A stretch of 37,672 nucleotides of DNA from Bacteroidota bacterium. Its GTDB lineage: Bacteria > Bacteroidota > Ignavibacteria > UBA10030 > UBA8401. Below the pieces are notes generated by a model. That model searched no databases, was not told the origin of the DNA, and saw only the letters and a list, made by a program, of their open reading frames with translations. The translations under genes were made by a program, and so were the position numbers. The stretch lies in the NCBI GenBank assembly GCA_021796215.1, contig JAJYOK010000027.1, positions 1 to 37,672 of the forward strand. The letters are read 5' to 3'. Positions 10,701 through 33,707 of the stretch are shown piece after piece. Position 1 is the stretch's first letter. Each line of letters opens with the position of its first letter.

Positions 10701-10897
10701 GAATCAACAGGCGTGTTGTTGATGTCTAAACGAATCCGCCAGCCGGCAGGTGCATGCCCGCTGATAAACTGATTCTGGTACGGACTTACCATGCCTTCCG
10801 CCGGAACTTTGATGTTAATTTGAGCATCAACACCAAATCCGACGAGAAGCACGCTGCCCAACACCATCACAGCATATTTTCGGATCGCGTTAAACAT
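7772..10897 (-). CDS. Large outer-membrane beta-barrel protein with N-terminal Ig-like domains
   Basis: 1041 residues. A signal peptide ends near residue 25 (VLLVGFGVDA). Residues about 27-110 and 115-212 look like two beta-sandwich domains; the second resembles bacterial Ig-like (invasin type) folds. Residues about 290-455 carry conserved blocks of a large OM protein family: YGD near 297, YGDFNTG near 326, GSEKVRIETRD near 394, and DYEIDYQQGTLFF then NPIYIVVTYE near 422-455. From about 465 to the end there are alternating amphipathic strands rich in Y, and the chain ends in FLSVKMKF, typical of a barrel C-terminus. Its neighbours are a DUF11 protein upstream and the giant repeat protein 12 bases downstream. 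It may anchor or export one of them, which is inference. It is not a classical TonB receptor: I saw no TonB box or plug motif. Confidence 0.85.
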   Translation of the reverse strand: MFNAIRKYAVMVLGSVLLVGFGVDAQINIKVPAEGMVSPYQNQFISGHAPAGWRIRLDINNTPVDSQIVRPDGVFEFIGVPSPFGPVTYTVETERNGIKYHAERKIHILGPPDSIIVNIPTDIPADGRTIIHGKAYIVDKWGVKIPSGYPVTIRIDTLGILTPDNDPATPGIQVPLRDGEINFDLQTTRDAGTYILTLSSNGISINKPVVLVTALEPLMLVGSANASGSLLNTKGDLSQINDQRKFSDGFHEDGRLAFYGRGAIFDKYMLTASYDNQRHQQDRFYQEIDPDVLYSIYGDNSNVDYTAQTSSSVFVKIERNRSNLFYGDFNTGLAQNELARYDRTFTGLKGHYEDSTQNADVFATMTNRKVAQEEIRGEGISGFYFLKNSNIVTGSEKVRIETRDAYHSDVIVSRTYKSRFNDYEIDYQQGTLFFKQPVQSIDATGNPIYIVVTYEAQSGSASNYVVGGQGEKEIAKGLTVGATAVTEERDPSNYTLYGFNTQYNMNSFVHASGQIARGADVNSKGNAWRLELAATPADELTLKTYYHRVESGFVNQTLGGGGTGEIGSNKYGVSSSYGGIANTTLGAEYYRSMQDASLGSVIIKSTTGTVEHSFGKFATGGLKIENVRYESSSRDSASLQDIRESTILGAQTSVKPIEKLTLNGQYERSIATSHEEVKPAVGMVGASYNIFKPVLLTAQYKFYEAGGNATLFGISSNIGYGTTVTGNYEIGNGISGRRNQASIGLKNTTKITNDLTANVAYERTRALDRNLVETQTSDHDAFSLGLELIPKAPYKASIKGEYEKNAQSVKRNFSFGGDVKVGSDFTLIEKLTYYDETQTQSLTASSQFWSAPLSLDQSTSTVNGGFLKRFSNTVGFAFRPVMYDWLNAIGRFDQKMEYNGFVSPQADYSASIISLHTFVEPIPYLEVGIKYALKYADEQSYGLRAKTLTDLYLARADYDLNWHNVDVAGEFRILSQREANDMRIGYSGEVGYVVMQNVRLGVGYNFVGSKERDLVDYTYWSRGPFLSVKMKFTEKILNYFE

Positions 10898-13033: not shown

Positions 13034-13915
13034 TCAGCTATCTTTTCGGACAAAAAGGCTATGCTGTACTCCGATAATTTCTTTAAACGTTGAACAGATT
13101 TTATCTACGTAGGCAATGGAACCGAATTGTGCAATCTGTACAGAGCTCATGACAAATATTTTCCCCTCTCGTTCGGAGAGTATCTCTTTTGCCTTTGCCA
13201 ATTGAGCGAAGTCGAATGCACTTGAAGCATGAATGTAGACATGGTGGGGCTGTTTGCTCGTAATCAGCTGCAAAATTGAATCAGGCGATGCCGACACGCC
13301 AAGGTTTAACACTTCAAAACCTTCACTCTCCAAAAGGGCGACAAGTGCCTTTAACTCAATGTCGTCATTGTCCCCTTCAATGGTGCAGCATAAAACGCGT
13401 TTACCCTTCACCGATGGCCTGATAATAACGTCTGAAAATAAAATTATGCCGTTTGATAACGTATTGTTTGCTAATTGCATTTCGGCGTCAGATATTTTTC
13501 TCTCGCGGTTGAGATCTTTGATTCGTTTTAGAGTGGGGCGAAGTACTTCATCGAAAATGAGCGGAAGAGTAAGACCGTTGCGGTATACTTCAGAAAAAAC
13601 CTTTGCAACGTCACTCTGCCTCCCTTCTATAGCAGAATTGAAACAGACTGAGGCAAGAACATTATATTCTTTTCTCATGATGATACGCCGCATAACGGCT
13701 TCATCACTTGCAAATTGCTGATACAGATTCAGTGAAGAGATGCCATAATTGAATTCCGACATAAATTGATATAAATCTTCTGCACGGAATTTTCTGTGGC
13801 CACCAGGAGTTCTGAAACACTTTAGTTTCCCTTCGTCTGTCCAGCGCTTCACGGTAGATTTATCAACCTGAAGCATTTGAGAAACATCTGCCGTGGTGAA
13901 AAGTATTTCTGTCAT
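13034..13915 (-). CDS. MerR-type HTH regulator with degenerate cobalamin-binding-like domain
   Basis: 293 residues. Residues 1-50 form a MerR/excisionase winged helix (TTADVSQMLQVDKSTVKRW, then TPGGHRKF). A helical region (about 70-165) and a Rossmann-like C-terminal domain (about 171-285) follow the layout of CarH/LitR-type B12-dependent light sensors. The ligand positions are changed: the D-x-H-x-x-G motif reads DNDDIE at 182-187, so both His and Gly are lost. The helical-domain E-H pair seems to be M-Q near 146-147. It probably does not bind B12 in the usual way and may be a B12-independent or apo-type regulator. The start has AAGGAG 6 bases upstream. It sits directly upstream of, and in the same direction as, the surface-protein cluster, which it may control (inference). 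Confidence 0.85.
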   Translation of the reverse strand: MTEILFTTADVSQMLQVDKSTVKRWTDEGKLKCFRTPGGHRKFRAEDLYQFMSEFNYGISSLNLYQQFASDEAVMRRIIMRKEYNVLASVCFNSAIEGRQSDVAKVFSEVYRNGLTLPLIFDEVLRPTLKRIKDLNRERKISDAEMQLANNTLSNGIILFSDVIIRPSVKGKRVLCCTIEGDNDDIELKALVALLESEGFEVLNLGVSASPDSILQLITSKQPHHVYIHASSAFDFAQLAKAKEILSEREGKIFVMSSVQIAQFGSIAYVDKICSTFKEIIGVQHSLFVRKDS

Positions 13916-14359: not shown

Positions 14360-15013
14360 CTAAGCAATATTCTTTTTCGCTTCCTGAAAATTTTTTATCA
14401 ACCGTTGCGCTCTTTCGGTCAGCACTTCGTAGCGTTCCTCTTCGATCGCCTTTTTGTCGAGAAGATCACTGCCGATGCCGACTGCAACAGCGCCTGCCAA
14501 AACCCAATCACCGACATTCTCAATAGTCACACCGCCAGTTGGCATTAAACGGATGTGCGGGAAAGGACCTGCGATATCTTTAAAATATTTTGGCCCGAGT
14601 GACGTTGCAGGAAATACTTTGATGATGTCCGCACCTGCATTCCATCCGAGGAGAATCTCCGTCGGAGAAAAACATCCCGGCATGCAAGCAACGTCATTAT
14701 CGCGGCACGCTGCAATTATATCAAGATTAAGCACCGGACCAACGACGAATTTTGCTCCAGCTTTGATAACATCCAGAGCATTATTTTTTTCTGTGACACT
14801 GCCCGCACCGATAAGAACATCAGACGGAACGCTTCGTATCATCTCACCAATGATATCAACGGCATTGGGAACGGTCATCGTAATTTCAATGGATTTCACA
14901 CCGCCAAGCCGAATTGCTTCAATAACTTTTGAAAGATGCTGCGCATCTTTCAAGCGAATAACCGCGATGACACCGGTTGAAATAATTTGTTCTACAACTT
15001 CTTTTCGTGACAT
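14360..15013 (-). CDS. eda: KDPG aldolase (2-dehydro-3-deoxy-phosphogluconate aldolase)
   Basis: 217 residues from the ATG at 15013. An alternative ATG at 15043 adds 10 residues, but it overlaps the end of kduD and its reading starts before the family's usual N-terminus. This class I aldolase cleaves 2-keto-3-deoxy-6-phosphogluconate to pyruvate and glyceraldehyde 3-phosphate. Family motifs are visible: an early TGVIAVIRL strand, EITMTVPNA with the Glu general base, GAGSVTEKNNA, MPGCFSPTEI, IIKVFPATSLGPKY with the Schiff-base Lys, and LMPTGGVTIENV. It is the last gene of the uronate operon and finishes the KduI-KduD-KDG kinase route. Confidence 0.93.
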   Translation of the reverse strand: MSRKEVVEQIISTGVIAVIRLKDAQHLSKVIEAIRLGGVKSIEITMTVPNAVDIIGEMIRSVPSDVLIGAGSVTEKNNALDVIKAGAKFVVGPVLNLDIIAACRDNDVACMPGCFSPTEILLGWNAGADIIKVFPATSLGPKYFKDIAGPFPHIRLMPTGGVTIENVGDWVLAGAVAVGIGSDLLDKKAIEEERYEVLTERAQRLIKNFQEAKKNIA

Positions 15014-15027
15014 TGATGTTCTTTTGA

Positions 15028-15783
15028 TTACCTTGCCATCCATCCGCCGTCAACAACCAGCACATGTCCCTCCATATAATCAGAAGCGGACGAAGCCAGA
15101 AAAACAACAGCACCTTTCAAATCATCCGGCATGCCCCAGCGGCCTGCTGGAATCCGGTCGAGAATGGATTTAGAACGAACGGGATCATCCCTTAATGGTT
15201 TTGTGTTGTCGGTTGACATATAACCGGGAGCAATAGCATTCACGTTGATGCCGCGTGACGCCCATTCGTTTGCGAGCGCTTTTGTTACTTGAGCAACTGC
15301 CCCTTTGCTCGCCGCATAGGACGGTACAAGAATTCCTCCTTGAAATGCGAGAAGAGAGGAAATGTTAATGATCTTTCCGTACTTCCGTTTCATCATATCT
15401 TTCGCAACAGCTTGGGAAAAAAAGAAAACGGTTTTCGCATTCACCGCCATCACCTCATCCCAATCTTTTTCCGAAAATTCAATCGCTGGTGTCCTGCGAA
15501 TGATACCGGCGTTATTGACAAGGATATCAATTTTTCCGAATTCACGTAACGCTCGTTCAACAATCATTTGAATAGAAGACGTCGTGGAAAGGTCGGCGAT
15601 GACATCGAGCGCTTTTCTCCCTTTCTTTTCAACTTCCTCTTTTACTTTAGAACTTCCTGTCCGGCTGACGAAAACAAGATCGGCGCCTCCATCCGCAAGT
15701 CCGTGCGCCATTCCCGCGCCAAGTCCGGTATTTGCGCCTGTGACGATGGCAACTTTTCCGGTAAGATCAAAAAGGTTGATCAT
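15028..15783 (-). CDS. kduD: 2-dehydro-3-deoxy-D-gluconate 5-dehydrogenase (KduD), SDR
   Basis: 251 residues from the ATG at 15783, which has AGGAAAG just upstream and starts MINLFDLTGKVAIVTGAN; KduD is normally about 253 residues. The open frame runs further upstream to 15852 but would overlap gnd. This classical short-chain dehydrogenase has TGANTGLG for the dinucleotide, NNAG, the catalytic Ser in INISS and YAASK for the Tyr-Lys pair. In the family it reduces 2,5-diketo-3-deoxygluconate (from KduI) to KDG with NAD(P)H. The presence of kduI, KDG kinase and eda in the same operon supports this over a generic gluconate dehydrogenase. Confidence 0.85.
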   Translation of the reverse strand: MINLFDLTGKVAIVTGANTGLGAGMAHGLADGGADLVFVSRTGSSKVKEEVEKKGRKALDVIADLSTTSSIQMIVERALREFGKIDILVNNAGIIRRTPAIEFSEKDWDEVMAVNAKTVFFFSQAVAKDMMKRKYGKIINISSLLAFQGGILVPSYAASKGAVAQVTKALANEWASRGINVNAIAPGYMSTDNTKPLRDDPVRSKSILDRIPAGRWGMPDDLKGAVVFLASSASDYMEGHVLVVDGGWMAR

Positions 15784-15803: not shown

Positions 15804-17282
15804 TTACGCAACATAAGCGGACGACGCTGTTGTGCCACCGTGGCCAGTCCAATTCGTATGGAAAAATTCCCCACGCGGTTTGTCCGTTCGTTCGTACATG
15901 TGCGCACCAAAATAATCGCGCTGCGCTTGAAGTAAATTGGCGGGCAAACGCGAGTTTCTGAAGCCATCAAAATAATTCAACGCCGTTGCCATCGCCGGTG
16001 TCCAGATTCCATTCAGGATAGAAGTAGAAAGTACACGTCTCCATGCATCCTGCGAGTTCTCAATTATGTCTTTAAAAAACGGATCAAGAAGCAAATTCGA
16101 GAGATTTGGGTTCCGGTCAAATGCTTCTTTAATCTTCCCAAGAAATACTGAGCGGATGATGCACCCGCCGCGCCAAAGCAAAGCGATGCCGCCGTAGTTC
16201 AAATTCCATTTGAATTCTTCTGCCGCCGACCGCAGCATTACGTATCCTTGCGTGTACGAAACAAGCTTAGAAGCATACAGCGCTTTTTCAAGGTCGTTGA
16301 GAAATGCCTGTTTATCTTCTGTAAATTTTGGCTTTGGACCTGTCAGAACGTTTGATGCCTCGACGCGCTCGCTTTTCATTGCAGAAAGACAGCGGGCATA
16401 GACTGCTTCACTGATAAGTGTGAGAGGAATACCAAGGTCTAATGCCTCGACGCTGGTCCATTTACCGGTTCCTTTCTGACCTGCCGTGTCAAGAATCTTA
16501 TCGACAAGCGGCTGCCCGTCAGCGTCTTTGAATGCGAGAATGTCCCGTGTAATTTCAATCAAATAGCTGCCGAGCGGGCCTTTGTTCCATTTCTCAAAAA
16601 CGTCATGCATTTCGGCTGCAGACATGCCGAGGAGTTCTTTCATAATCTGGTACGCTTCGCAAATTAGCTGCATGTCGCCGTACTCTATCCCGTTATGTAC
16701 CATTTTAACAAAATGTCCAGCCCCATTTCCGCCGACCCAATCACAACATGGCGTTCCATCTTCCACCTTCGCCGCGATTGACTGGAAAATCGGTTTCACA
16801 TGCTGCCACGCAGGAAGTGAGCCGCCGGGCATGATTGATGGACCATGCAGCGCTCCTTCTTCACCGCCTGAAACACCGGTACCGATGAACAACAATCCTT
16901 TCGACTCAAGATATTTCGTTCGTCGTATCGTATCAGGGAAATGCGAATTTCCACCATCAATGATAATGTCACCTTTATCAAGATGAGGAATAATCTGTTC
17001 GATAAATTCGTCAACAGGTTTTCCCGCCTTCACCATTAGCATAACCTTTCGCGGCGTTTTGAGTGACTCAACAAGCTCAGGAATGGAATGTGTTCCGATA
17101 ATTTTTTTTCCTTTTGCACGGCCAGCGACAAAGCTATCTACTTTTTCAACCGTGCGATTGAATACTGCAACAGTGAACCCGCGGCTTTCCATGTTCAATA
17201 CGAGATTCTCACCCATCACTGCAAGTCCTACCAGACCGATATCTGCCATGTTATTGACTTGATTTCCAACTTTGCCATTCAT
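15804..17282 (-). CDS. gnd: 6-phosphogluconate dehydrogenase, decarboxylating
   Basis: 492 residues. It oxidises and decarboxylates 6-phosphogluconate to ribulose 5-phosphate. It closely follows the long, dimeric Gnd type: GLAVMGENL nucleotide loop, FNRT, LMVKAG, IIDGGN, GTGVSGGEEGA, the catalytic block GHFVKMVHNGIEYGDMQ (Lys and downstream Glu), KGTGKWTS, and C-terminal QRDYFGAHMYERTD. The first 11 residues precede the conserved start MADIGLVG (ATG at 17249), which could be the true start. The C-terminus carries about 12 extra residues. It sits between a KDG kinase and kduD, unusual for a pectin operon because the standard KDG route does not make 6-phosphogluconate. Confidence 0.95.
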   Translation of the reverse strand: MNGKVGNQVNNMADIGLVGLAVMGENLVLNMESRGFTVAVFNRTVEKVDSFVAGRAKGKKIIGTHSIPELVESLKTPRKVMLMVKAGKPVDEFIEQIIPHLDKGDIIIDGGNSHFPDTIRRTKYLESKGLLFIGTGVSGGEEGALHGPSIMPGGSLPAWQHVKPIFQSIAAKVEDGTPCCDWVGGNGAGHFVKMVHNGIEYGDMQLICEAYQIMKELLGMSAAEMHDVFEKWNKGPLGSYLIEITRDILAFKDADGQPLVDKILDTAGQKGTGKWTSVEALDLGIPLTLISEAVYARCLSAMKSERVEASNVLTGPKPKFTEDKQAFLNDLEKALYASKLVSYTQGYVMLRSAAEEFKWNLNYGGIALLWRGGCIIRSVFLGKIKEAFDRNPNLSNLLLDPFFKDIIENSQDAWRRVLSTSILNGIWTPAMATALNYFDGFRNSRLPANLLQAQRDYFGAHMYERTDKPRGEFFHTNWTGHGGTTASSAYVA

Positions 17283-17358
17283 AATTATTTTCTCTTTCTT
17301 TCGTCAAATATTATTGTATCATTTTCTTAGTGTAAGCGCGGGCGATGACAACTTTTCT

Positions 17359-18441
17359 CTATCTCTGAATACGCGCTGAACCGCCTTCAGCGAATGCCTT
17401 TACTTGCTCCAAGGTTGCCATTGTCGTATCGCCGGGGAATGTTGTAAGCAACGCACCATGCGCCCAGCCAAGCCTTACCGACTTCTCCGGTGTTTCGCCG
17501 CTCAGTAAACCGTAGAAGAAACCGCTTGCGAATCCATCGCCTCCGCCAACGCGGTCGAGCACATCCAGAGCGACCGTCGGTGCTGTGTACGTTTTGCCGT
17601 CGATCCATGCGACCGCACTCCAACCATGATGATGTGTCGAATGGACTTCGCGCAATGTTGTTGCTACAACTTTCACCTGAGGATATTTTGCAATTACTTT
17701 ATCAATCATTCCGAAGAATGTGCTTGGATCAAGTTTTGATTTCGCCGCTACTTCGGGGCCCGGGATTCCCAAACCTTTCTGCAAGTCCTCTTCGTTACCA
17801 ACCAAGACATCGGCATTCTCCACGATGCGCGCCAAAACTTCAGCCGCTTTCTTTTCGCCGCCCCAAATATTCCATAGCTTGGCACGAAAATTCAAATCGA
17901 AACTCACCACTGCGCCGGCTTTTTTTGCAGCTTTCATTCCTTCAATGATCAGTTCACCCGTTGTTGCTGACAGTGCCGCAAAGATACCGCCGCTGTGAAA
18001 CCATCGCACACCGCCTGAAAAAATTTCATTCCAATTAAAATCACCCGGCTTCAATTGCGCTGCCGCTTCATTCGCGCGATTGTAAAAAACCACAGGCGGA
18101 CGAATACCATGTCCACGATCGCTGTACACAGTTGCCATATTTGGCCCATTCACGCCATTGTGTTTGAATATCGTATAGAATGGCTTCACTCCCATTGCTT
18201 TCACTCTCTCTGCGATAAGATCGCCAATCGGATAATCTACCATCGCTGTGACGATACCCGTGTTCATCTGAAAACAATCTGCTAAATTAGCCGCAACATT
18301 AAACTCGCCGCCGCTTGTGTGAATGGAGCATTCGGTCGCTTTCCGGAAAGGCACTATCCCCGGATCTAAACGATGCACCAATGCGCCCAATGAAACCAAA
18401 TCCAAAGCTCCTTTGGGATTGATTTTCAAACTATTGCTCAT
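17359..18441 (-). CDS. kdgK: PfkB-family sugar kinase, probable 2-keto-3-deoxygluconate kinase
   Basis: 360 residues from the ATG at 18441. A GTG four codons earlier lies inside the AAGGAG ribosome site, so the ATG is chosen (11-base spacing). PfkB signatures: the N-terminal SGGEFNVAANLA block and the C-terminal DRVGGGDGFASGF with the catalytic Asp. Middle motifs RWFHSGGIFAALS, SFDLNFRAKLW and LVGNEEDL are typical of KDG kinases. It would phosphorylate KDG at C6 for Eda. A paralogue lies two genes upstream (19793-20878) and the two flank uxaE, so which one is the true KDG kinase cannot be told from sequence alone. Confidence 0.85.
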   Translation of the reverse strand: MSNSLKINPKGALDLVSLGALVHRLDPGIVPFRKATECSIHTSGGEFNVAANLADCFQMNTGIVTAMVDYPIGDLIAERVKAMGVKPFYTIFKHNGVNGPNMATVYSDRGHGIRPPVVFYNRANEAAAQLKPGDFNWNEIFSGGVRWFHSGGIFAALSATTGELIIEGMKAAKKAGAVVSFDLNFRAKLWNIWGGEKKAAEVLARIVENADVLVGNEEDLQKGLGIPGPEVAAKSKLDPSTFFGMIDKVIAKYPQVKVVATTLREVHSTHHHGWSAVAWIDGKTYTAPTVALDVLDRVGGGDGFASGFFYGLLSGETPEKSVRLGWAHGALLTTFPGDTTMATLEQVKAFAEGGSARIQR

Positions 18442-18494
18442 TAACTCAATCACTCCTTTTTTCTGTAATGGTGTTGATTTGTCACACTTATTTC

Positions 18495-19748
18495 TTAATC
18501 GTTATTCAGAAATAATGGTACCAAATGCCGTTGAAAAATGTTTTCCGTAACTCCAGCGCTGATATCTTTTTGAGATTCATCCAATGCTGTCATAAAACGC
18601 TCTCCCATTTCAGCCGCAATTTTATATCCGATATGAACAAGCTGCCGGAATGAATTATTATACTGCGGGCATGATTGATCATGCTTCAACGCGCAAACAA
18701 AGTCCTGGCTGCTCCATCCATTGACGGTGGAGGGATTCGGAAGTTTTTTTACATCAATGTCTATCACCGTGAGATACGGCTTCGCCAATTCATCAAAGCG
18801 TTGATAGGATTGGACATAAACATCTTTCGCAATTTGAAGACCTGCCCCTCCGGATTTTGCCAATCCAATAACTTCCTCGAGCCAGGTAGTTCCTGCTGTC
18901 TTTAGATGTAAGCCGGCGTCGAACTTCTTAATTGTCCGGTTGATAATCGGGTAAATAGAGAACTTGTCACTTCCCGAGTGTACGCTTATTTTCAGACTTT
19001 CAGGCAAGGAAAATTCTTTCACGGCAAAAGCGATGATCGCAATATCCTGTTCAAATTCTTTTGCAAATTTCTTAATATCGCCGACATAATCTACTCCCTT
19101 GAGAAATTCTCCCGTGAATTTTGTCGCAATCGTCTGAAGCATAACACCTTCCTGAGCGAGCGCTGCAAGGATAAGAAAAAGCTCTGCCGGCGTCTGAGGA
19201 TCGTTCGACTCATCTGTAGATACTTCAGTGATAAAAGTATCTTTCCCTTTACGCGAAACGATATGCCGGTAGATTTTTCCAGCTTCCTTAACTGCTGAAA
19301 GATATTTCAAACCTACAGCAGTTATCATTCCTTTTGTGATAGCAATACTTTCTTTGAGTCCGGATACCCGAAGATTCCCTACATATTTCCCGCATTCGTT
19401 CTGGAATTTTTTTAAATCGTCGTGAGCAGGCTCTTTCCCGATAAAGTCGGCAACATCCAAAGTAAAATAATTACTCGGCTCTACGAACAAATCCACCGTG
19501 TTAATTCCAATATGATCGGCATCAACGTAATACGAATCATTCCATCCCACTACTCCTACTGCGCGGTCTGCTTCTTTCCGAACGTCCGCCGGCCTCGTTC
19601 CGATTAACGCATGTTCACGATTCGATTTATTCCAAACAGGAACAATGCTCACCCCACGCTCCTTTGCTTTCACAAACGCTGCAAGCTGAGCGGCTCCCTG
19701 ATGTCCGAATCGATCACCAATTCCAATCGAATATTTTTCTATCGTCAT
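18495..19748 (-). CDS. uxaE: Tagaturonate/fructuronate epimerase (UxaE family)
   Basis: 417 residues. It resembles the UxaE family first described in Thermotoga maritima, which interconverts D-tagaturonate and D-fructuronate and so joins the galacturonate branch to the glucuronate branch. Visible blocks: SIGIGDRFGHQGAAQL at the N-terminus, VGWNDSYYVDADHI, TEVSTDESNDPQTP, and ISVHSGSDKFSIYP, where His, Asp and Glu residues could bind a metal. With uxaC in the same operon it removes the need for altronate enzymes (UxaA/UxaB), none of which is present. The ATG has AAGG 10 bases upstream. Confidence 0.85.
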   Translation of the reverse strand: MTIEKYSIGIGDRFGHQGAAQLAAFVKAKERGVSIVPVWNKSNREHALIGTRPADVRKEADRAVGVVGWNDSYYVDADHIGINTVDLFVEPSNYFTLDVADFIGKEPAHDDLKKFQNECGKYVGNLRVSGLKESIAITKGMITAVGLKYLSAVKEAGKIYRHIVSRKGKDTFITEVSTDESNDPQTPAELFLILAALAQEGVMLQTIATKFTGEFLKGVDYVGDIKKFAKEFEQDIAIIAFAVKEFSLPESLKISVHSGSDKFSIYPIINRTIKKFDAGLHLKTAGTTWLEEVIGLAKSGGAGLQIAKDVYVQSYQRFDELAKPYLTVIDIDVKKLPNPSTVNGWSSQDFVCALKHDQSCPQYNNSFRQLVHIGYKIAAEMGERFMTALDESQKDISAGVTENIFQRHLVPLFLNND

Positions 19749-19792
19749 TACTTTTCATCCTTACCTTTCTTAAGTAACACAGCTACATTAAA

Positions 19793-20878
19793 TTATCGTT
19801 TTATTCGTGCACTTCCTCCGCCCATCACATGCTTGACTTCTTCCATTGTTACCATACTCGTATCTCCTCTCGTGCTTTGAAGGAGTGCGCCATGCGCCGC
19901 TCCCAACTCTACACATTCCTGCGGTTTCATTACATGAAGCAGCCCGTAAACGAATCCGCTGCAAAAACCATCGCCACCGCCAACTCTATCTTCTATTTCA
20001 AGATTGTTGTACTTGCGTGATTCGAAAAACATTCCATCATAATACATTATCGCTGACCAATTGTTGACCAATCCGCTGACAACTTCGCGCAACGTGGTAC
20101 CCACAACTTGAATATTCGGGTACGTATCTACGACTTTCTTCACCATCTTCTTGTAACCTTTAATCGGGAAAGATTTCAAATTTTCATCAACACCCTCGAC
20201 TTCAAAGCCGAGAACTTTCTGAAAATCTTCCTCGTTTCCGATGAGCACGTCAACGAACGGCATGAGTTTCTTCGTAACTTCAATCGCCTTTTTGCTTGAC
20301 CAGAGTTTACTTCGAAAGTTAAGATCATAACTGACAATCGTTCCCGCTTCATGCGCCGCTTTCATTGACTCGAGTGCAACTTCAGCACAAGTATCGCTCA
20401 ACGCTGTAAAAATTCCACCAGTGTGAAACCATCGCACTTTTCGTTGACTGAAGATTCGTTTCCAATCAACATCTCCCGGTTTCATGTGAGCAATCGCTGT
20501 GTGTCCGCGGTCGTACAGCGAAACGCTCGCCCGTACACCAATGCCAACTTCGGTAAAATTAAATCCAATTCGATCTGCCCTCCCCGATCCGTCATACGGT
20601 ATCCACACAACTTCGCTGATATCCATTCCGCTTGCGCGTGCGTGATTCTTAATAAATGCTCCGAGAGGATTATCAACAAGGCGTGAAACCCATGCTGCTC
20701 GCATTCCGTACCGGGCGAGAGCGTAGGTCACATTATATTCTCCGCCGCCAGCGTACGCTTCAAACACCGGAGTCAATTCAATCCGTTGATGTCCCGGAGG
20801 GCTCAATCGGATCATGCACTCGCCAAGCGACAACACATCAAGCTCTGTTTCAGCTTCTGATTTGATTTTTAACGGCAT
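19793..20878 (-). CDS. Second PfkB-family sugar-acid kinase (KDG kinase-like)
   Basis: 361 residues, clearly homologous over its full length to the kinase at 17359-18441: AYAGGGEYNVTYALARYG, RWFHTGGIFTALS, SYDLNFRSKLW, IGNEEDFQKVLG, and the catalytic DRVGGGDGFCSGF. The substrate-binding N-terminal region differs (GGGEYNVT against SGGEFNVA, and a different lid near residues 85-115), so the two kinases may have different sugar-acid substrates. Candidates are KDG, or an aldonate made by the neighbouring LarA homologue; neither is proven. It lies 22 bases after the LarA homologue. The Shine-Dalgarno match is weak, suggesting coupling to the upstream gene. Confidence 0.8.
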   Translation of the reverse strand: MPLKIKSEAETELDVLSLGECMIRLSPPGHQRIELTPVFEAYAGGGEYNVTYALARYGMRAAWVSRLVDNPLGAFIKNHARASGMDISEVVWIPYDGSGRADRIGFNFTEVGIGVRASVSLYDRGHTAIAHMKPGDVDWKRIFSQRKVRWFHTGGIFTALSDTCAEVALESMKAAHEAGTIVSYDLNFRSKLWSSKKAIEVTKKLMPFVDVLIGNEEDFQKVLGFEVEGVDENLKSFPIKGYKKMVKKVVDTYPNIQVVGTTLREVVSGLVNNWSAIMYYDGMFFESRKYNNLEIEDRVGGGDGFCSGFVYGLLHVMKPQECVELGAAHGALLQSTRGDTSMVTMEEVKHVMGGGSARIKR

Positions 20879-20900
20879 CGTTTTCTTAAAAATATATTTC

Positions 20901-22148
20901 TCATTTCAAACGATAAAGCAACTGACCTGCGTTTTCAACGACAAGTAAATCACCGTTTTGTTTTGCTTTCCACTCAGCAATATTAATTGAACGATAATCT
21001 ACATAACCAAGGTTTACAGCGCGGCATACATCTTTGGGAATTGACGTTGCCAGCGTGACATTAATGCGCGGAGATTCGATTCCATTCTCGTATGTTCCGA
21101 TACCGCGAACATTTGTGGAATGTGCAAGTATCAGTTTCGGCATCATCGAGAACTTGCTCCACTGCTTCACAAAATAATCTCGCACGTGATAACCGACTTT
21201 TCGTATTTCCTTTCCATGGACATATGATATCTCCTTTACATGCGGCGCGTAAATAATTACTTCGCCGCCATCGGCGATGATCGGTTCATGCTTGTACATC
21301 ACTTTGCCCGCCACCCAGATATCTTCGTAGATCGGAGGCGCAACGCCTAAAACTTTTTTGTAGGGATGGTCAACGTACTTAATATGAATTTTTTCTGAAC
21401 ACTCCGCCGCTTTCCCCCATGCTTCTTCCGGTGAACCGATAAACAGCGACGTCACGACATGGTCGTCAACAACAAACCCGAAGCAAATTCGCGGAACTGA
21501 AATGAACGAAGCGGCTTTGTTGATGACTCTTCTTACCGGCGTATCTTTCACGCCGTTGACGACTGGATTCGTGATCAATGCGCCAATCCAATGGAATGTT
21601 TGAATGATCTCCAGTCCGCCGATGCCAGGGAAAAAATATTTATTTCCGCCTGCAAATCCAACAGTTTCGTGCGGCACAACAGGACTGATTAGAATGAGTT
21701 GATCATACTCGAAAATGTGCTTATTAATCGTCACCTCAACGGAATCGTTGAATAGTCTTTGCGACAGTTCGGACATTTCCGAAGCGCTGATCGTTCCTAT
21801 CGTTCGAAGTTCATTTGAATCATTATGCAAATGATTATAGAATTTAGTCTTCGGGTATTTCTGTTTATAGTCGTCTGAAGTAATTCCCACATGATGTAGA
21901 ATTCTTTCCAGCTCCATTGGCGGATGAGTGCCAGCGGCGATGAGATAATCGAGAGCGATAACCTTATGGCCAAGAAGATCATCCAGCGTTTTGAAAAACA
22001 CCGGAAGCTCTGCATGCCGCGTTGTGTCGGGAATAATCACGAGCACCCGCTTCCCGTCAAGCCGGAGCGATGATAGTGCTTGCGCACTCAGTTCGTAAAT
22101 CTCCTCCATCATTTTTTGCCGCGATATTGTATCTTTTCCAATAACCAT
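20901..22148 (-). CDS. LarA-family nickel-dependent 2-hydroxyacid racemase/epimerase homologue
   Basis: 415 residues, full length for the LarA (DUF2088) family. The members known so far act on 2-hydroxy acids such as lactate and malate, and one epimerises D-gluconate at C2. Key features: PDTTR near 40-44, AAGTHPP near 71-77, YNHLHND near 104-110 (first catalytic His), PHETVGFAGGNKYFFPG near 159-175 (second catalytic His, and the Lys that carries the nickel-pincer cofactor), and QTFHW near 183-187 (metal-binding His). All expected residues are present, so it is likely active. It starts 2 bases after pdxB. In a uronate operon the substrate is probably an aldonate such as mannonate (inference). 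The cofactor genes larB, larC and larE are not in the window. Confidence 0.85.
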   Translation of the reverse strand: MVIGKDTISRQKMMEEIYELSAQALSSLRLDGKRVLVIIPDTTRHAELPVFFKTLDDLLGHKVIALDYLIAAGTHPPMELERILHHVGITSDDYKQKYPKTKFYNHLHNDSNELRTIGTISASEMSELSQRLFNDSVEVTINKHIFEYDQLILISPVVPHETVGFAGGNKYFFPGIGGLEIIQTFHWIGALITNPVVNGVKDTPVRRVINKAASFISVPRICFGFVVDDHVVTSLFIGSPEEAWGKAAECSEKIHIKYVDHPYKKVLGVAPPIYEDIWVAGKVMYKHEPIIADGGEVIIYAPHVKEISYVHGKEIRKVGYHVRDYFVKQWSKFSMMPKLILAHSTNVRGIGTYENGIESPRINVTLATSIPKDVCRAVNLGYVDYRSINIAEWKAKQNGDLLVVENAGQLLYRLK

Positions 22149-22150
22149 AC

Positions 22151-23311
22151 CTATCTCACTTCTACCCGAAATCCAATAGTCATCAATAGTTCTTGCAACG
22201 AACTCATCGGCTTCGGCAGCTCAACGGTTGTGTTCGAAAATTCTCTCCGAACTCGGTACTCTGCCCGTAACCGTCTGAAATATAAACGCTGCTCCTCACT
22301 TGAAATCTTGCTGATGTCTCTCAACGTCCGGTCATCACTTTCAATATCGTAACATTGACGAATAACGTTGTAGAACATGTTTTCGCTAGATTCGTTTCCT
22401 AATTTTTCAGCAGGAATTACAATTCGTTCTACAGGAGGCTTTGGAATTAATTTTTCTAAAGACCAATTTTCTTTTTGTCCGAAGAATTTACATGCGGCGG
22501 AATATGTTTGCTTCACCGCCGCCAACTTCCCTTCGAAGGAATATCCCGCGATATGCGGAGTTCCGATCTCTACATGTTTCAACAAAGAAGTGTCAATGAC
22601 AGGTTCACCCTCCCACACATCGAGCACAGTCCCTCCAAGATGACCGCTTGAAAGAACACCTGATAAGGCTTTCCCATCAATTACACTTCCGCGCGCCGTA
22701 TTAATAAGTATTGCGCCTTTTTTTATTTTATTCATGCGTGCAGCATCAAATAAATGATATGTCGGGTCTGGTCCCGTTTTAGTGAGGGGAACATGTACTG
22801 TGATGATATCAGCAAGCATTAATTCGTCGAGAGATAAAAAAGAAGTATCGCCGGTGGCCCGTGCAAGGGGCGGATCATTTTTCAGCACCGTCATTCCAAG
22901 CGCTTTTGCATTTCGAACAACTTTACTTCCGACATTTCCAACGCCGACAACGCCGATCGTTTTTTCTTTAAGTGAGAATCCTTTGCGGCGAGCAAGCAAG
23001 AGCAGTGCGGTCACAATATATTCTGCAACAGAGTTCGCATTTGAGCCGGGTGCGCTCGCAAATCCGATTTTCCGCGAACGAAGATATTCGACGTCAACAT
23101 GATCAGTGCCGATTGTTGCAGTTCCGACAAACTTCACGGTGCTTCCGTCAAGCAACTCCTTCGTCACTTTCGTTTCAGAACGGACAATGAGAATATCGGC
23201 ATCATGAACTGATTCCCGTGTAATGTCTTTGGTTCCAAGAGGAATTACATCGCCAAACTGCCGGAATGTTTCAGCTACGAGAGGATTATTTTTATCTACT
23301 ACAATTTTCAT
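22151..23311 (-). CDS. pdxB: Erythronate-4-phosphate dehydrogenase (PdxB)
   Basis: 386 residues. This D-isomer-specific 2-hydroxyacid dehydrogenase has the specific PdxB pattern: N-terminal MKIVVDKNNPLV, FVGTATIGTDHVD, ASAPGSNANSVAEYI, GVVGVGNVGSKV for NAD, NTARGSVIDG with the catalytic Arg, VLDVWEGEP, and GTPHIAGYSFEGK with the catalytic His. The C-terminal 100 residues match the PdxB dimerisation domain (CYDIESDDRTLR, YRVRREFSN), which separates it from SerA or glyoxylate reductases. PdxB oxidises 4-phospho-D-erythronate in pyridoxal phosphate synthesis. Its place inside a uronate operon, 1 base from the SDR and 2 from the LarA homologue, is odd; it may have a second role in sugar-acid metabolism. 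Confidence 0.9.
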   Translation of the reverse strand: MKIVVDKNNPLVAETFRQFGDVIPLGTKDITRESVHDADILIVRSETKVTKELLDGSTVKFVGTATIGTDHVDVEYLRSRKIGFASAPGSNANSVAEYIVTALLLLARRKGFSLKEKTIGVVGVGNVGSKVVRNAKALGMTVLKNDPPLARATGDTSFLSLDELMLADIITVHVPLTKTGPDPTYHLFDAARMNKIKKGAILINTARGSVIDGKALSGVLSSGHLGGTVLDVWEGEPVIDTSLLKHVEIGTPHIAGYSFEGKLAAVKQTYSAACKFFGQKENWSLEKLIPKPPVERIVIPAEKLGNESSENMFYNVIRQCYDIESDDRTLRDISKISSEEQRLYFRRLRAEYRVRREFSNTTVELPKPMSSLQELLMTIGFRVEVR

Positions 23312-23312
23312 T

Positions 23313-24095
23313 TTATATTGTCATCGCTGTAAAACCGCCATCAACGGGAATGAGAGCACCGGTCACAAATGAAGAAGCTTTCTCCGATGCAAGCCACAGA
23401 AGTGCTCCGGTCAATTCTTCAGGCTCGCCGTAACGTGCCATCGGCGTGTGTGCAAAAATTGATTTCCGGCGTTCCTCGGTCAGAATTTTTCGGTTTTGTT
23501 CCGCGGGAAAAAAGCCGGGCACAATCGCGTTCACACGGATCTTATGCGGCGCCCATTCTCTGGCGAGAAACCGGGTCATATTATTGATACCCGACTTCGA
23601 GATGGAATAAGTAAATACTTTCGATAACGGCAGCTCGGACGACACAGAAGAAATATTGATGATGCTTCCTCCCTGCTTTTGTTCGATCATCTGCTTCGCA
23701 AATGTTCGGCAGGAAAAAAACGTTCCCCTTAGATTTGTGTCGAGAATATTATTCCATTCTTCCATGCTGATATCGAAAACCGGCGTCGGAGAATTTACTC
23801 CCGGCGCGTTCACAACAATATTGATATTTCCCCACCGTGAAAGAATCTCATCCTTTCCTTTTTCAACACCTTCAGACGAAGCAGAATCAATCTGAACGGC
23901 AATTGCCGATCCACCGGACTGCTCAATCTTTCGCGCCAGCTTTTCTGCATTATCTTTATTGTGATGATATCCGACGGCAACTTTTGCTGAGGCTTGCGCC
24001 AGTGCTTGTGCCATCATTCCGCCAAGCACGCCGCTCCCGCCGATAACGACGGCGACCTTTCCATCCAAACCAAAAAGATTATCGAGATATGACAT
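23313..24095 (-). CDS. SDR oxidoreductase, probable fructuronate reductase (mannonate dehydrogenase)
   Basis: 260 residues. Classical short-chain dehydrogenase: GKVAVVIGGSGVLGG nucleotide motif (residues about 12-26), NAPG in place of NNAG, catalytic Ser in INISSVSS, YSISK for Tyr and Lys, and the C-terminal PVDGGFTAM. The N-terminal FGLDGKVAVV plus GGSGVLG pattern is shared with SDR-type mannonate oxidoreductases, which replace the unrelated UxuB. Given UxaC and UxaE, reduction of fructuronate to mannonate is the missing step it would fill. The start has AAGGAAG 4 bases before the ATG. Another sugar-acid specificity is possible. Confidence 0.7.
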   Translation of the reverse strand: MSYLDNLFGLDGKVAVVIGGSGVLGGMMAQALAQASAKVAVGYHHNKDNAEKLARKIEQSGGSAIAVQIDSASSEGVEKGKDEILSRWGNINIVVNAPGVNSPTPVFDISMEEWNNILDTNLRGTFFSCRTFAKQMIEQKQGGSIINISSVSSELPLSKVFTYSISKSGINNMTRFLAREWAPHKIRVNAIVPGFFPAEQNRKILTEERRKSIFAHTPMARYGEPEELTGALLWLASEKASSFVTGALIPVDGGFTAMTI

Positions 24096-24136: not shown

Positions 24137-25417
24137 TTACACTTCCAACACAGCAGACTCCATTTTGGGTACCAGTCCATGGAAAATCAGCAGTGCAAGT
24201 AAATACGCCGAGCCGGAAATGATAAACAGTGTAAGATAACTTCCTGTGAACTCAAGTATAAATCCGGCGCCGGTTGCAAGAAGCATTCCGCCTACTGATC
24301 CCGCCATTCCACCCAAACCTACAACTGACGCTACCGCTCTTTTTGGAAACATATCGGATGCTGTGGTGAAAATATTTGCCGACCATCCTTGATGAGCCGC
24401 CGCAGCAAGACCAATGAGTCCGACTGCAACCCACAGTGACACCACAGAAGCAAACACGATTGGGACGACACATAATGCGCAAATCAACATTACTACTTTC
24501 CGGCTTTTGTTAATATCCCATCCCCGCTTGATAAACGCACCCGATAACCATCCGCCGCCAATACTTCCGACGGTCGTCATCGTATAAATCACAATCAGCG
24601 GCAAACCAAGCTGGCTCAAGTCGAGACCATATTTGGTATTGAGGAACAACGGGAGCCAATAAAGATAGAACCACCAAATCGGGTCCGTCAAAAATTTCCC
24701 AATGACAAACGCCCACGTCTGCTTGTGCCTTAGCAATGTTGCCCAGGGAATTTTTGCAGTCTCCGTCTCTGCAGGATCGCTCTGGATGTATTCCAATTCT
24801 TTCCTGGAAACACGGCGATGAACTTCAGGTCTATCATAGAACAACATCCACAGTACAAGCCAGAAAAATCCGAGCACTCCCGTGACGATAAATGCAGACT
24901 GCCATCCGTAAGTAATCGTTAACCATGGCACAACCATCGGCGCAAAAACTGCACCAATATTCGCCCCAGAATTAAAAATACCGGCCGCCAGCGCCCGCTC
25001 TTTTTTCGGGAACCACTCAGCAACTCCTTTTATCGCTGCCGGGAAATTTCCCGACTCGCCGAGTCCAAGTGCAAAACGCGCTGTTCCAAAGCCGAAAGCA
25101 GTACGAACCAATGCATGTCCCATCGCCGCCAGACTCCATACAGCAATTGCAAATGAGTATCCGTGTTTCGTTCCGAAGCGGTCAATAAGTCTTCCCATAA
25201 AGAGAAGTCCAAGAGCGTACGCCGCTTGAAATGCAGTAACTATATATCCGTATTCTATATTGTCCCAACCGATTTCCTTTTGAAGAACGGGAGCAAGAAT
25301 ACCGAGCACCTGTCTGTCAATATAGTTAATCGTTGTCGCAAAAAAGAGAAGTGCACAAACTGTCCATCGGAAGTTTGTTCTTTTTTCATCCAATGCTATT
25401 GATTCTGCGGTAGCCAT
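24137..25417 (-). CDS. exuT: MFS hexuronate transporter (ExuT/ACS family)
   Basis: 426 residues from the ATG at 25417, with GGAAGG at 6 bases; ATGs further upstream lie in or before that site. Twelve hydrophobic segments are expected. Anion:cation symporter family motifs: TINYIDRQVLGILAPVLQKEIGW in TM1, GRLIDRFGTKHGY in loop 2-3, RFALGLGESGNFPAAIKGVAEWFPKKERALAAGIFNSGANIGA in TM4-5. It probably imports galacturonate or glucuronate with protons across the inner membrane. The operon context (kduI, uxaC, uxaE) supports hexuronate over other organic acids; unsaturated or deoxy-keto uronates are also possible. Confidence 0.85.
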   Translation of the reverse strand: MATAESIALDEKRTNFRWTVCALLFFATTINYIDRQVLGILAPVLQKEIGWDNIEYGYIVTAFQAAYALGLLFMGRLIDRFGTKHGYSFAIAVWSLAAMGHALVRTAFGFGTARFALGLGESGNFPAAIKGVAEWFPKKERALAAGIFNSGANIGAVFAPMVVPWLTITYGWQSAFIVTGVLGFFWLVLWMLFYDRPEVHRRVSRKELEYIQSDPAETETAKIPWATLLRHKQTWAFVIGKFLTDPIWWFYLYWLPLFLNTKYGLDLSQLGLPLIVIYTMTTVGSIGGGWLSGAFIKRGWDINKSRKVVMLICALCVVPIVFASVVSLWVAVGLIGLAAAAHQGWSANIFTTASDMFPKRAVASVVGLGGMAGSVGGMLLATGAGFILEFTGSYLTLFIISGSAYLLALLIFHGLVPKMESAVLEV

Positions 25418-25478
25418 TCTCATCCTTCCTGAAAAATGAATTAACAATTAGTGAACGACATATTCTTTGAAAGTCTCG

Positions 25479-26312
25479 CTACCTCAACTCACTCATTGCT
25501 ACGGCATCCATATCAGAAAATTCCTGATTCTCTCCTCCCATCGCCCAGATGAATGCATAGTTTTTCGTGCCGGACCCGGCGTGAATGGACCACGGAGGAG
25601 AAATAACCGCCTGCTGGTTTCTCACGATTACTGCCCGTGTGTCGGTCGGTTTTCCCATAAGATGCACTACTAACGAATCTTCATCTAATCCAAAATACAT
25701 GTATACTTCCATCCTTCGTTGATGGGTATGCACAGGCATGGTATTCCACACCGAGCCTTTCGTTAATTCTGTCAGTCCCATGACAAGCTGACTGCTTTTT
25801 ATTCCATCGGAATGAATGAATTTTGTAATCGTTCGCGCATTAGCATTTTCGAGAGAACCGAGAGAAGTCTTTGAAGCTTCAGAAAACTTTGCATGGACAG
25901 AAGGGAAATTTTTATGTGCTGGAAAGGAAACGAAATAATAGAGCGAAGGCTTCTTCGGATCGCTGCTGCTGCACAAAATTTCTTTCACGCCTTTCCCAAG
26001 ATACAACAGGTCTTTGTTTTCCATTCGGAATTCGGTTCCATCGGCGCGTATTTTACCTTCTGCGCCGATATTAATGATGCCGACCTCTCGCCGTTCCAGG
26101 AAATATTCCGCCGCCATTTCTTTTTTCGATGCTTCAATCTTAAGCGCTTTCCCCTTGGGAACGGCAGTGCCAACAATGACCCGGTCAACATCGGAATAGA
26201 GCATCGTCACAATTCCTGCTTTAAAAAGATTATCAATAAGAAAAGCGCCGCGCAATTCGCTTGTTGTCATGCGTTGATATGCCTCGTCGTTGGGCGCGTA
26301 ACGTACTTCCAT
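25479..26312 (-). CDS. kduI: 5-keto-4-deoxyuronate isomerase
   Basis: 277 residues from the ATG at 26312 (MEVRYAPN), matching the family length of about 278. A GTG four codons earlier touches the AAGGA ribosome site and is less likely. This cupin-fold zinc enzyme converts 4-deoxy-L-threo-5-hexosulose uronate, the product of unsaturated pectin fragments, to 2,5-diketo-3-deoxygluconate for KduD. Metal ligands are visible: His-x-His and Glu in PVHTHQRRMEVYMYF, and the later His in PPWSIHAGSGTKNYAFIW. RREVGIINIGAEG is also typical. Confidence 0.95.
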   Translation of the reverse strand: MEVRYAPNDEAYQRMTTSELRGAFLIDNLFKAGIVTMLYSDVDRVIVGTAVPKGKALKIEASKKEMAAEYFLERREVGIINIGAEGKIRADGTEFRMENKDLLYLGKGVKEILCSSSDPKKPSLYYFVSFPAHKNFPSVHAKFSEASKTSLGSLENANARTITKFIHSDGIKSSQLVMGLTELTKGSVWNTMPVHTHQRRMEVYMYFGLDEDSLVVHLMGKPTDTRAVIVRNQQAVISPPWSIHAGSGTKNYAFIWAMGGENQEFSDMDAVAMSELR

Positions 26313-26354
26313 ATAGTTCTTCACTTCCTTAATTCAATGTTTACAAAACAGTCA

Positions 26355-27761
26355 TCAGAATTTGAAAAACCTCTTCGCATTGAAATAGCAGATATCTCTT
26401 ACCATTGAACCAACCAATTCCATGTCTGAAGGAATAAGCCCTTTTTCCATTTCAGTGCCGAGAATATTACAGAGAAGCCGCCGAAAATATTCATGCCGCG
26501 GGTACGAGAGAAAACTCCGGGAGTCCGTAATCATTCCCACAAACTGACTTAACAAGCCCATATTCGACAGCGCTTCCATCTGACGTGTCATTCCATCTTT
26601 CTGATCAAGAAACCACCACGCCGCGCCAAATTGAAGTTTTCCCGGAACAGAACCATCCTGAAAATTTCCGATCATGGTTGCGTACAATTCGTTATCGCGG
26701 GGATTAAGGTCGTAAAATATTGTTTTGGTTAATTTGTTTTCGCTGTCAAGACGGTCGAGATATTTTGCCATTGGCTTCGCCATTTCAAGATCGCCGATGG
26801 AATCAAAACCTGTATCGGGTCCGAGCGTACGCATCATGCGCGTGTTGTTATTCCTCAGCGCGCCGACGTGAAATTGCTGCACCCATCCTTTTTCCCAATT
26901 CATGATGCCGAATTCATACAACATCGCCGATCTGAATTTTGAAATTTCCGCCGGTGCCAGCCTTCTTTTCCGGAGAAGTTTTTTGAAAAGCAGTTTGATT
27001 TCGGATTCTTTGTACTCATCTGCATGAAAAGTTTCAAGCGCATGATCGGTGAGGCGGCAGCCGTGTTTTTCAAAATAATCATAACGCAAACGCAGCGCAT
27101 CAAGAAATCCATTATAGGAAGTAATCTCTTCTTTGACAGCTTTGCCAAGCAGTCCGACATATTTTGCAAATGCGACCGGATCATCTACCGCCATCGCCTT
27201 GTCCGGTCTCAATGCCGGCAGCACACGAATTGCGTTTCCTTGTGACGCATACTGTGTATGATGTTCAAGGGAATCAACGGGATCGTCCGTGGTGCAGACG
27301 ATTTCGACATTCATCTGTTTCATAATTCCCTGCGTCGTGAATTCAGGGGTTGCAAGCTTCCTGCGGCATTCATCCCAAATAGTTTTAGCAGTCGAAGAAT
27401 TGAGAAGTGTACCGGAGATGCCGAAAGGTTTTTTTAATTCAAGGTGCGTCCAATGGTACAACGGATTTCGTAATGTTTTTGGAACTGTTGCGGCCCATTG
27501 TTCAAATTTTTCCCAATCACTTGCGTTGCCCGTGATATATCGCTCATCTACACCGCATGTTCTCATCGCCCTCCATTTATAATGATCGCCATTAAGCCAC
27601 ACTTGAGTGATGTTTTCAAATTGCTTGTTCTCCGCAATCTCCTTTGGCGAAAGATGACAGTGGTAATCAATAATCGGCAATTTTTCGGCATAAGAGTGAT
27701 AAAGCGTTACCGCACTTTTATTTTCCAAAAGGAAATCTTCGTGTATGAATTCTTTTTTCAT
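26355..27761 (-). CDS. uxaC: Glucuronate/galacturonate isomerase (uronate isomerase)
   Basis: 468 residues, full length. Amidohydrolase-superfamily enzyme that turns D-galacturonate into tagaturonate and D-glucuronate into fructuronate. Motifs: IDYHCHLSPKEIAENK (the metal His-x-His), WLNGDHYKWRAMRTCGVDE, CTTDDPVDSLEHH, QFHVGALRNNNTRM and ITDSRSFLSYPRHEYFRRLLC near the C-terminus. It lies 9 bases after the DUF4861 gene, and kduI follows 42 bases later. It feeds UxaE further down the operon. Confidence 0.96.
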   Translation of the reverse strand: MKKEFIHEDFLLENKSAVTLYHSYAEKLPIIDYHCHLSPKEIAENKQFENITQVWLNGDHYKWRAMRTCGVDERYITGNASDWEKFEQWAATVPKTLRNPLYHWTHLELKKPFGISGTLLNSSTAKTIWDECRRKLATPEFTTQGIMKQMNVEIVCTTDDPVDSLEHHTQYASQGNAIRVLPALRPDKAMAVDDPVAFAKYVGLLGKAVKEEITSYNGFLDALRLRYDYFEKHGCRLTDHALETFHADEYKESEIKLLFKKLLRKRRLAPAEISKFRSAMLYEFGIMNWEKGWVQQFHVGALRNNNTRMMRTLGPDTGFDSIGDLEMAKPMAKYLDRLDSENKLTKTIFYDLNPRDNELYATMIGNFQDGSVPGKLQFGAAWWFLDQKDGMTRQMEALSNMGLLSQFVGMITDSRSFLSYPRHEYFRRLLCNILGTEMEKGLIPSDMELVGSMVRDICYFNAKRFFKF

Positions 27762-33668: not shown

Positions 33669-33707
33669 AATCTGCATTCCTTCTTTTTCTATCCTCTTTA
33701 GTAGAAC

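Follow-up and report, generated by a model that had tools for sequence, protein, structure and literature searches.

A route from mannonate through gluconate to 6-phosphogluconate was proposed for Thermotoga maritima by Rodionova et al. in 2012 (described in PMC6978723). The UxaR pectin operon of that organism is arranged as aldH-pelB-gnd-uxaRED-gntEK and stands alongside a kdgAK-uxuBA operon (PMC3750489). The activity of GntE has been shown in vitro, and four LarA homologues, GntE1, GntE2, LarAH10 and LarAH15, are reported to epimerise mannonate and gluconate at C2 (PMC7583248, PMC11770544). A related scheme, the hybrid isomerase/phosphoketolase pathway of Lactobacillus suebicus, takes galacturonate via mannonate to 6-phosphogluconate and its dehydrogenase and is redox-balanced as far as ribulose-5-phosphate; in that scheme phosphorylation of mannonate comes first, and the account attaches no genes to these steps (PMC6978723). 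Here we analyse a 37,672-nucleotide stretch of DNA from a Bacteroidota bacterium of the class Ignavibacteria (contig JAJYOK010000027.1; hereafter the window), which carries a pectin operon encoding a LarA homologue, two PfkB kinases and 6-phosphogluconate dehydrogenase (Gnd). The window is one entire contig (C38); the genome assembly totals 3.37 Mb, is divided among 44 contigs and is rated 100% complete.

The operon resembles that of T. maritima in combining gnd and uxaE with genes for a uronate reductase, a LarA-family epimerase and a kinase in a pectin setting, and we propose the same route for it, with substrates assigned here from sequence comparison. GntK is a member of the FGGY family. 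Unlike T. maritima, with its GntK and kdgAK-uxuBA, the present genome has no uxuA, the operon kinases are of the PfkB family, the LarA homologue belongs to another clade and PdxB is encoded within the operon. The use of UxaC, of fructuronate reduction and of Eda for 2-keto-3-deoxy-6-phosphogluconate (KDPG) is shared with the canonical isomerase pathway, whereas the dehydratases of the canonical UxuA/UxaA pathway, for mannonate and altronate, were not found in the genome. The route itself is not new; what is new is a LarA clade without an assigned function, the PfkB kinases, the absence of UxuA and the presence of PdxB in the operon. We found no description of the route in this bacterial group in the literature searched, which included only a minority of subscription papers.

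The operon is a minus-strand run that leads from secreted pectin enzymes to UxaC, KduI, a major facilitator superfamily (MFS) transporter, a short-chain dehydrogenase/reductase (SDR), PdxB, the LarA homologue, PfkB kinase A, UxaE, PfkB kinase B, Gnd, KduD and Eda. From UxaC to Eda all genes lie on one strand and are separated by 1–76 bases or overlap slightly. Its pectin uronates are probably catabolised by LarA-dependent conversion of mannonate to gluconate, a PfkB kinase and Gnd. In particular, saturated galacturonate would be converted to fructuronate by the uronate isomerase UxaC (26355–27761; galacturonate to tagaturonate, glucuronate to fructuronate; NF002794, 648.5 bits, cut-off 387; PF02614, 687 bits) and the tagaturonate-fructuronate epimerase UxaE (18495–19748; PF16257, 194.7 bits, cut-off 27.1; no NCBIfam match). 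The SDR (23313–24095), a likely fructuronate reductase whose best NCBIfam model is the D-mannonate oxidoreductase NF006132 (280.9 bits, cut-off 281), would then yield D-mannonate. With no mannonate dehydratase at hand, the LarA homologue (20901–22148; Lar_N PF09861, 70.5 bits, cut-off 23.3), carrying the nickel-pincer nucleotide (NPN) supplied by LarB, LarC and LarE, would invert the configuration at C2, producing D-gluconate. One of the PfkB kinases, more likely kinase B, would form 6-phosphogluconate, from which the full-length, NADP-dependent Gnd of the operon (15804–17282; TIGR00873, 772 bits, cut-off 426.7) would release ribulose-5-phosphate, CO2 and NADPH, repaying the reductant spent by the reductase. 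We infer the substrates throughout, as well as which of epimerisation and phosphorylation comes first and how the kinases divide the work.

Unsaturated uronates would take a separate branch, in which KduI (25479–26324; 5-dehydro-4-deoxyglucuronate isomerase; NF002091, 412 bits, cut-off 250) and KduD (15028–15783; TIGR01832, 376.6 bits, cut-off 338.85), the 5-dehydrogenase of 2-keto-3-deoxygluconate (KDG), would form KDG, and a KDG kinase with Eda (14360–15043; aldolase for KDPG and 2-keto-4-hydroxyglutarate; TIGR01182, 183.2 bits, cut-off 156.05) would yield pyruvate and glyceraldehyde-3-phosphate. The KduD family match begins at residue 28 of a longer open reading frame and we moved the start to the internal ATG at codon 24, so that the overlap with Gnd disappears. 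The transporter (24137–25447) is probably of the hexonate/hexuronate type (MFS_1, 215 bits; TIGR00893, 268.5 bits, under the cut-off of 395). A preliminary description, made from the DNA of the window alone, had named UxaC, UxaE, a likely fructuronate reductase, a LarA-family enzyme with all catalytic residues, a second PfkB kinase and Gnd, with no mannonate dehydratase in the window. The gene families were found where it had placed them and its gene content stands; its list of operon members was incomplete, since PdxB, KduI, KduD and Eda belong too, and it had counted a single LarA-family member with mannonate/gluconate epimerase activity rather than the four reported.

The LarA homologue retains Asp41, Arg44, His75, His160, Lys170, His186 and Lys282, which correspond to those specified for LarA and GntE2. 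The NPN-binding residues (Arg44, Lys170 and His186) and the catalytic residues (Asp41, His75, His160 and Lys282) are kept in all 90 sequences read from its clade, a set in which some are counted twice from the same contig. The best match in the Protein Data Bank is 4nar (219 bits, the next being 40.5 bits). This entry is GntE2 of T. maritima, which was shown to epimerise D-mannonate to D-gluconate (PMC7583248). An AlphaFold model of the LarA homologue has a mean predicted local distance difference test (pLDDT) score of 88.4, with low values near residues 161–170, and superimposes on 4nar with a template modelling (TM) score of 0.84, compared to 0.76 or less for further LarA entries; all 19 structures matched by the model at E ≤ 0.001 are LarA-type. 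Trp278, Tyr320 and His321 are common to the LarA homologue and GntE2 and occur in 90/90 clade sequences, and Gly281 and Asn346 of the window protein also match GntE2 (kept in 65/90 and 27/90 of the clade, respectively). Residues Leu339, Ser344, Thr345 and Arg361, near the proposed substrate region, differ from GntE2. Like LarAH groups 18, 19 and 20 as described by Desguin et al. in 2020 (PMC7583248), the protein has the catalytic and NPN residues, a glutamate after the catalytic histidine (Glu161) and the tryptophan of helix 11 (Trp278). The following loop residue is Thr162 instead of valine or serine (across the clade: Val 64, Ala 16, Thr 10; n = 90), and the helix 14 position is insecurely aligned.

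The rest of the genome was searched for enzymes that would make this route unnecessary or, conversely, equip it. UxuA gave no PF03786 match in the window or in the whole assembly, by a profile that was positive in 5/14 control genomes. A loss of UxuA to assembly gaps was rejected, given the completeness of this genome and the fact that 12 of the 13 UxuA-less genomes with a LarA of the same clade, this one included, are at least 91% complete. The altronate route was likewise rejected, as the profile search found no second UxaA domain (PF04295) in the genome. An Entner-Doudoroff exit from 6-phosphogluconate was also ruled out: edd was not found, the sole ILVD_EDD protein of the genome being IlvD (ilvD model, 804.6 bits, cut-off 618.15; edd model, 244.9 bits, cut-off 708.25). 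Three proteins match the enolase superfamily profile PF13378; the two of them that are listed have N-acetyl-Glu racemase and Ala-Glu epimerase models as their top matches, below the cut-offs, and for these two no mannonate dehydratase model appeared at E 1e-20 and no ManD was recognised. The genome holds LarB (294 bits, cut-off 175), LarC (464.6 bits, cut-off 22.1) and LarE (330.6 bits, cut-off 150), on three contigs and none near the operon. Of the genome checks suggested in the preliminary description, those for uxuA, edd and the lar cofactor genes came out in favour of its route. Another contig (C18) carries a short Gnd (302 residues, TIGR00872/NF007161 type) together with zwf and a Pgi-like protein. 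The operon Gnd is therefore a second, separate enzyme, and we rejected its being the housekeeping Gnd.

Genome comparison lends the route strong support. We compared 80 related genomes, of which 23 hold a LarA of the clade found in the window (clade A) and 22 hold a second kind (kind B, 33–38% identical over the matched part), 45 with hexonate-type LarA in total; three genomes with only weak LarA matches (G026, G047 and G054) were counted as having neither. Among the 22 kind-B proteins, seven were read and two scanned, both of the latter exceeding the group-18 cut-off. Gnd of either type (PF00393) is present in 45/45 genomes with hexonate-type LarA versus 4/35 without (Fisher p 4e-18; the genomes are kin to each other, so p values here overstate independence), and one of the four exceptions, that of G012, is a fragment at a contig end. 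That fragment is also the sole exception among genomes with Gnd but no zwf, 21/22 of which have LarA of clade A or kind B. The distance between LarA and Gnd is 12 kb or less in 33/45 genomes; for other LarA homologues (23–28% identity), inspection by eye of 18 places showed none on a contig with Gnd. The seven kind-B loci that were read each encode an SDR, PfkB, PdxB and Gnd, and most of them UxaC or UxaE, a setting that resembles that of clade A, so that the two kinds of LarA occupy the same slot. Two genomes, G022 (98% complete) and G032 (99%), have no UxuA, ILVD/EDD, zwf or UxaA over cut-off (one UxaA hit in G032 scores 21.3 bits against a cut-off of 27.3), although their LarA, PfkB A, PdxB, Gnd, UxaC and UxaE genes are clustered; in these two, an aldonate is almost the only conceivable source of 6-phosphogluconate.

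The cofactor genes are over cut-off in most clade-A genomes (LarE 23/23, LarC 21/23, LarB 22/23). As a separate observation, kind-B LarA is found in G003, G011, G016, G019 and G076, where no LarB, LarC or LarE exceeds the cut-off; four of these five genomes are 98–100% complete and the LarA proteins of G011 and G076 have the full set of catalytic residues. G014 (71% complete) is a further such genome. NPN might be scavenged in these organisms, be made by another route or be replaced by another cofactor.

The linkage extends well beyond this group. A profile search of named genomes gave at least 581 relatives, the best 80 of which we retained as named loci; neighbouring families, each represented by a single query protein (E 1e-10), were sought within 6 kb on the same strand, and at least seven of the 80 are the same contigs as loci of the related genomes. 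The named loci span Ignavibacteria, KSB1, Myxococcales, WOR-3, Gemmatimonadota, Marinimicrobia, Chloroflexi, Planctomycetota, Hydrogenedentota, Verrucomicrobia and others. Among these best 80, Gnd is present at 47, SDR at 52, UxaE at 23, UxaC at 12 and UxuA at one. At the 47 loci with Gnd, PfkB was found at 16 and a phosphofructokinase (PFK)-type protein at 20, one of these having both. The UxuA-less passage through LarA, a kinase and Gnd put forward in the preliminary description thus gains support from a linkage of LarA, sugar-acid kinase and Gnd that recurs across phyla. The PFK-type protein, about 430 residues long and near pyrophosphate-dependent phosphofructokinases, replaces PfkB beside LarA and Gnd at several loci (for example L104:7179–8468, and L102, L137 and L152); it might represent a third type of aldonate kinase or, alternatively, act on sugar phosphates further down the pathway. 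A protein of about 300 residues of the haloacid dehalogenase (HAD) family also stands beside LarA and Gnd in many phyla, at 26 of the 47 Gnd loci (L115:142–1026, L085, L099 and L131 among them); its best models are phosphoglycolate phosphatases, far below cut-off.

Several observations weigh against the proposed route. The LarA homologue shares just 36% identity with the group-20 enzyme GntE2 and reaches 170.6 bits with the nearest NCBIfam model, the group-18 hexonate epimerase NF052594, for which the cut-off is 500, so that membership of that model is ruled out. In a FastTree phylogeny, built from 45 of the 90 clade sequences and leaving out GntE1 and LarAH15, GntE2 joins group B (the group-18 homologues; support 0.90) and not the clade of the window protein, which stands by itself. 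With the NF052594 cut-off missed and GntE2 grouping with B, we describe the LarA homologue as a relative of the gluconate epimerases that is itself uncharacterised. Both kinases score below every NCBIfam cut-off (KDG kinase NF041332: A 202.2 and B 123.6 bits, cut-off 440), and the sole Gnd found in G052, a genome with hexonate-type LarA, is the short type beside zwf. Among the named loci, 33/80 have no Gnd within 6 kb, as do 14 of the 39 whose two flanks each reach 4 kb or more, and 12 of the 47 loci with Gnd show neither PfkB nor PFK-type kinase within 6 kb, these being the kinase families sought. UxuA is found in 10/23 clade-A genomes, including G001 of the same genus, and is commoner with hexonate-type LarA (19/45, 26/45 having LarA alone) than without (4/35; p 0.003). 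LarA and UxuA thus co-occur and do not replace each other, and LarA is no simple substitute for UxuA. In G001, uxuA lies beside genes for a KDG-kinase-like PfkB and an SDR (C248, L069), away from the LarA operon of that genome. The window genome may have lost the uxuA that G001 kept.

This co-occurrence would also fit LarA working in the opposite direction, turning environmental gluconate into mannonate for a dehydratase, with Gnd an unrelated passenger, and in G011 (L073) a group-18 LarA homologue lies two genes from UxuA. With 26 of the 45 LarA genomes lacking UxuA, Gnd present in all 45 and no dehydratase recognised in the present genome, we regard this as very improbable. An unrecognised mannonate dehydratase could instead be encoded elsewhere, the LarA homologue acting on another acid, such as an aldarate or a pectin-derived hydroxy acid. 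GntE1 is indeed thought by its authors to have a different native substrate (PMC7583248), and the genome contains a third, weaker enolase-superfamily match outside the two listed; this explanation would, however, account neither for LarA, a sugar-acid kinase and Gnd travelling together across many phyla nor for Gnd without zwf, and it appears improbable.

A somewhat stronger, still unlikely, alternative concerns the order of the steps. If phosphorylation came first, PfkB would make 6-phosphomannonate and the LarA homologue would be the missing 6-phosphomannonate 2-epimerase that delivers 6-phosphogluconate to Gnd. Both activities were shown in extracts of galacturonate-grown L. suebicus, in an account that does not tie them to genes (PMC6978723), and the clade differs from GntE2 near the proposed substrate region, for example at Leu339, Ser344, Thr345 and Arg361. 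On the other hand, the LarA-family gluconate epimerases described act on unphosphorylated mannonate (PMC7583248, PMC11770544), and the window protein matches GntE2 at Trp278, Tyr320 and His321, as does its whole clade, and at Gly281 and Asn346. We favour epimerisation of mannonate before phosphorylation.

In the favoured route one kinase would act on gluconate and the other on KDG. Kinase A (19793–20878) and kinase B (17359–18453; PfkB Pfam profile, 67 bits, cut-off 25.8) match 2afb, a T. maritima protein named 2-keto-3-deoxygluconate kinase, with 234 and 165 bits, respectively, and fall into separate clades in a tree of 43 PfkB sequences. Excluding the window, members of both clades have LarA or Gnd at a distance of 1.5 kb or less (A, 10/10; B, 20/22); since the loci were all fetched for holding LarA or UxuA, gene setting does not separate A from B. 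We compared 41 positions that distinguish the groups and are conserved inside each: only B deviates from the KDG-type kinases at 10 of them, and at none does A alone, the KDG-type references having been picked by their neighbours (Eda, UxuA) and two of their seven members being near LarA. These departures and the closer match of A to 2afb lead us to lean towards kinase B as the aldonate kinase, for gluconate or possibly mannonate, and kinase A as the KDG kinase, although A might be the aldonate kinase. The preliminary description had picked out kinase A as the one to assay on gluconate and KDG; this kinase resembles KDG kinases more than B does. Speaking against B, an A-type kinase follows Gnd-PdxB, apart from LarA, in G060, G063, G039 and G079, and in G022 and G032 the LarA-Gnd loci yielded no kinase other than an A-type one.

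PdxB (22151–23311; 4-phosphoerythronate dehydrogenase; NF001309, 437.3 bits, cut-off 434), a protein known from vitamin B6 synthesis, gives the only PF11890 match of the genome. 6-Phosphogluconate dehydrogenase is subject to inhibition by 4-phosphoerythronate, and gluconate poisons Bacillus subtilis that lacks the enzyme clearing this compound (PMC6449344). Expression of Escherichia coli PdxB enlarged the colonies of such a mutant (PMC12445079), in a paper that describes PdxB as a paralogue of GAPDH and as erythrose-4-phosphate dehydrogenase, at odds with the name, so that the identity of the protein there is uncertain. By analogy, we tentatively suggest that PdxB might have been recruited into Gnd-bearing uronate operons to clear this potent inhibitor, and that the HAD-family protein might do likewise in other phyla; we hold this to be possible rather than probable. 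Such a role would resemble the proofreading by CpgA, Pho13 and PGP, which shields 6-phosphogluconate dehydrogenase as carbon flows into the pentose-phosphate pathway (PMC6449344), and would differ from it in that the candidate is a PdxB inside a catabolic operon. PdxB is present in 44/45 genomes with hexonate-type LarA versus 9/35 without, and in the 45 relatives holding both it lies within 12 kb of Gnd in 28 (within 3.5 kb in 22) and apart from it in 17; several of the close pairs have Gnd away from LarA. In the window, PdxB adjoins the LarA homologue and lies about 6 kb from Gnd, and because the two are not adjacent the case for a guard role is slightly weakened. At the 47 named loci with Gnd, 20 have the HAD protein only, four PdxB only, six both and 17 neither. 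Alternatively, PdxB might work in vitamin B6 synthesis or be a reductase acting on a 2-keto-6-phosphogluconate.

The secreted pectin enzymes upstream of UxaC, also on the minus strand, are a pectinesterase (30615–33677), with a type IX secretion tail just under the cut-off, and a PelN-like lyase (29086–30618), with a type IX secretion tail. At the other end, 444 bases 3′ of Eda, a MerR-type regulator with a B12-binding-like domain (13034–13915, minus strand) is perhaps the operon regulator. Beyond it, 7772–10897 (minus strand) encodes a 1041-residue protein without any Pfam or NCBIfam match, and a repetitive, surface-protein-like open frame of at least 2586 residues (2–7759, minus strand) runs off the contig.

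If the favoured route is correct, it would assign genes to a way of using pectin that has so far been proposed for one hyperthermophile, or seen, with phosphorylation as the earlier step and without genes, in extracts of a lactic acid bacterium, and a function to a LarA clade found in many uncultured phyla. Its redox neutrality to ribulose-5-phosphate would be of interest for engineering microbes that grow on pectin waste. If PdxB does guard Gnd, a catabolic pathway feeding Gnd would be inherited along with the guard of its own bottleneck, and the tie between Gnd and PdxB would offer a testable case of metabolite repair travelling with the pathway that needs it.

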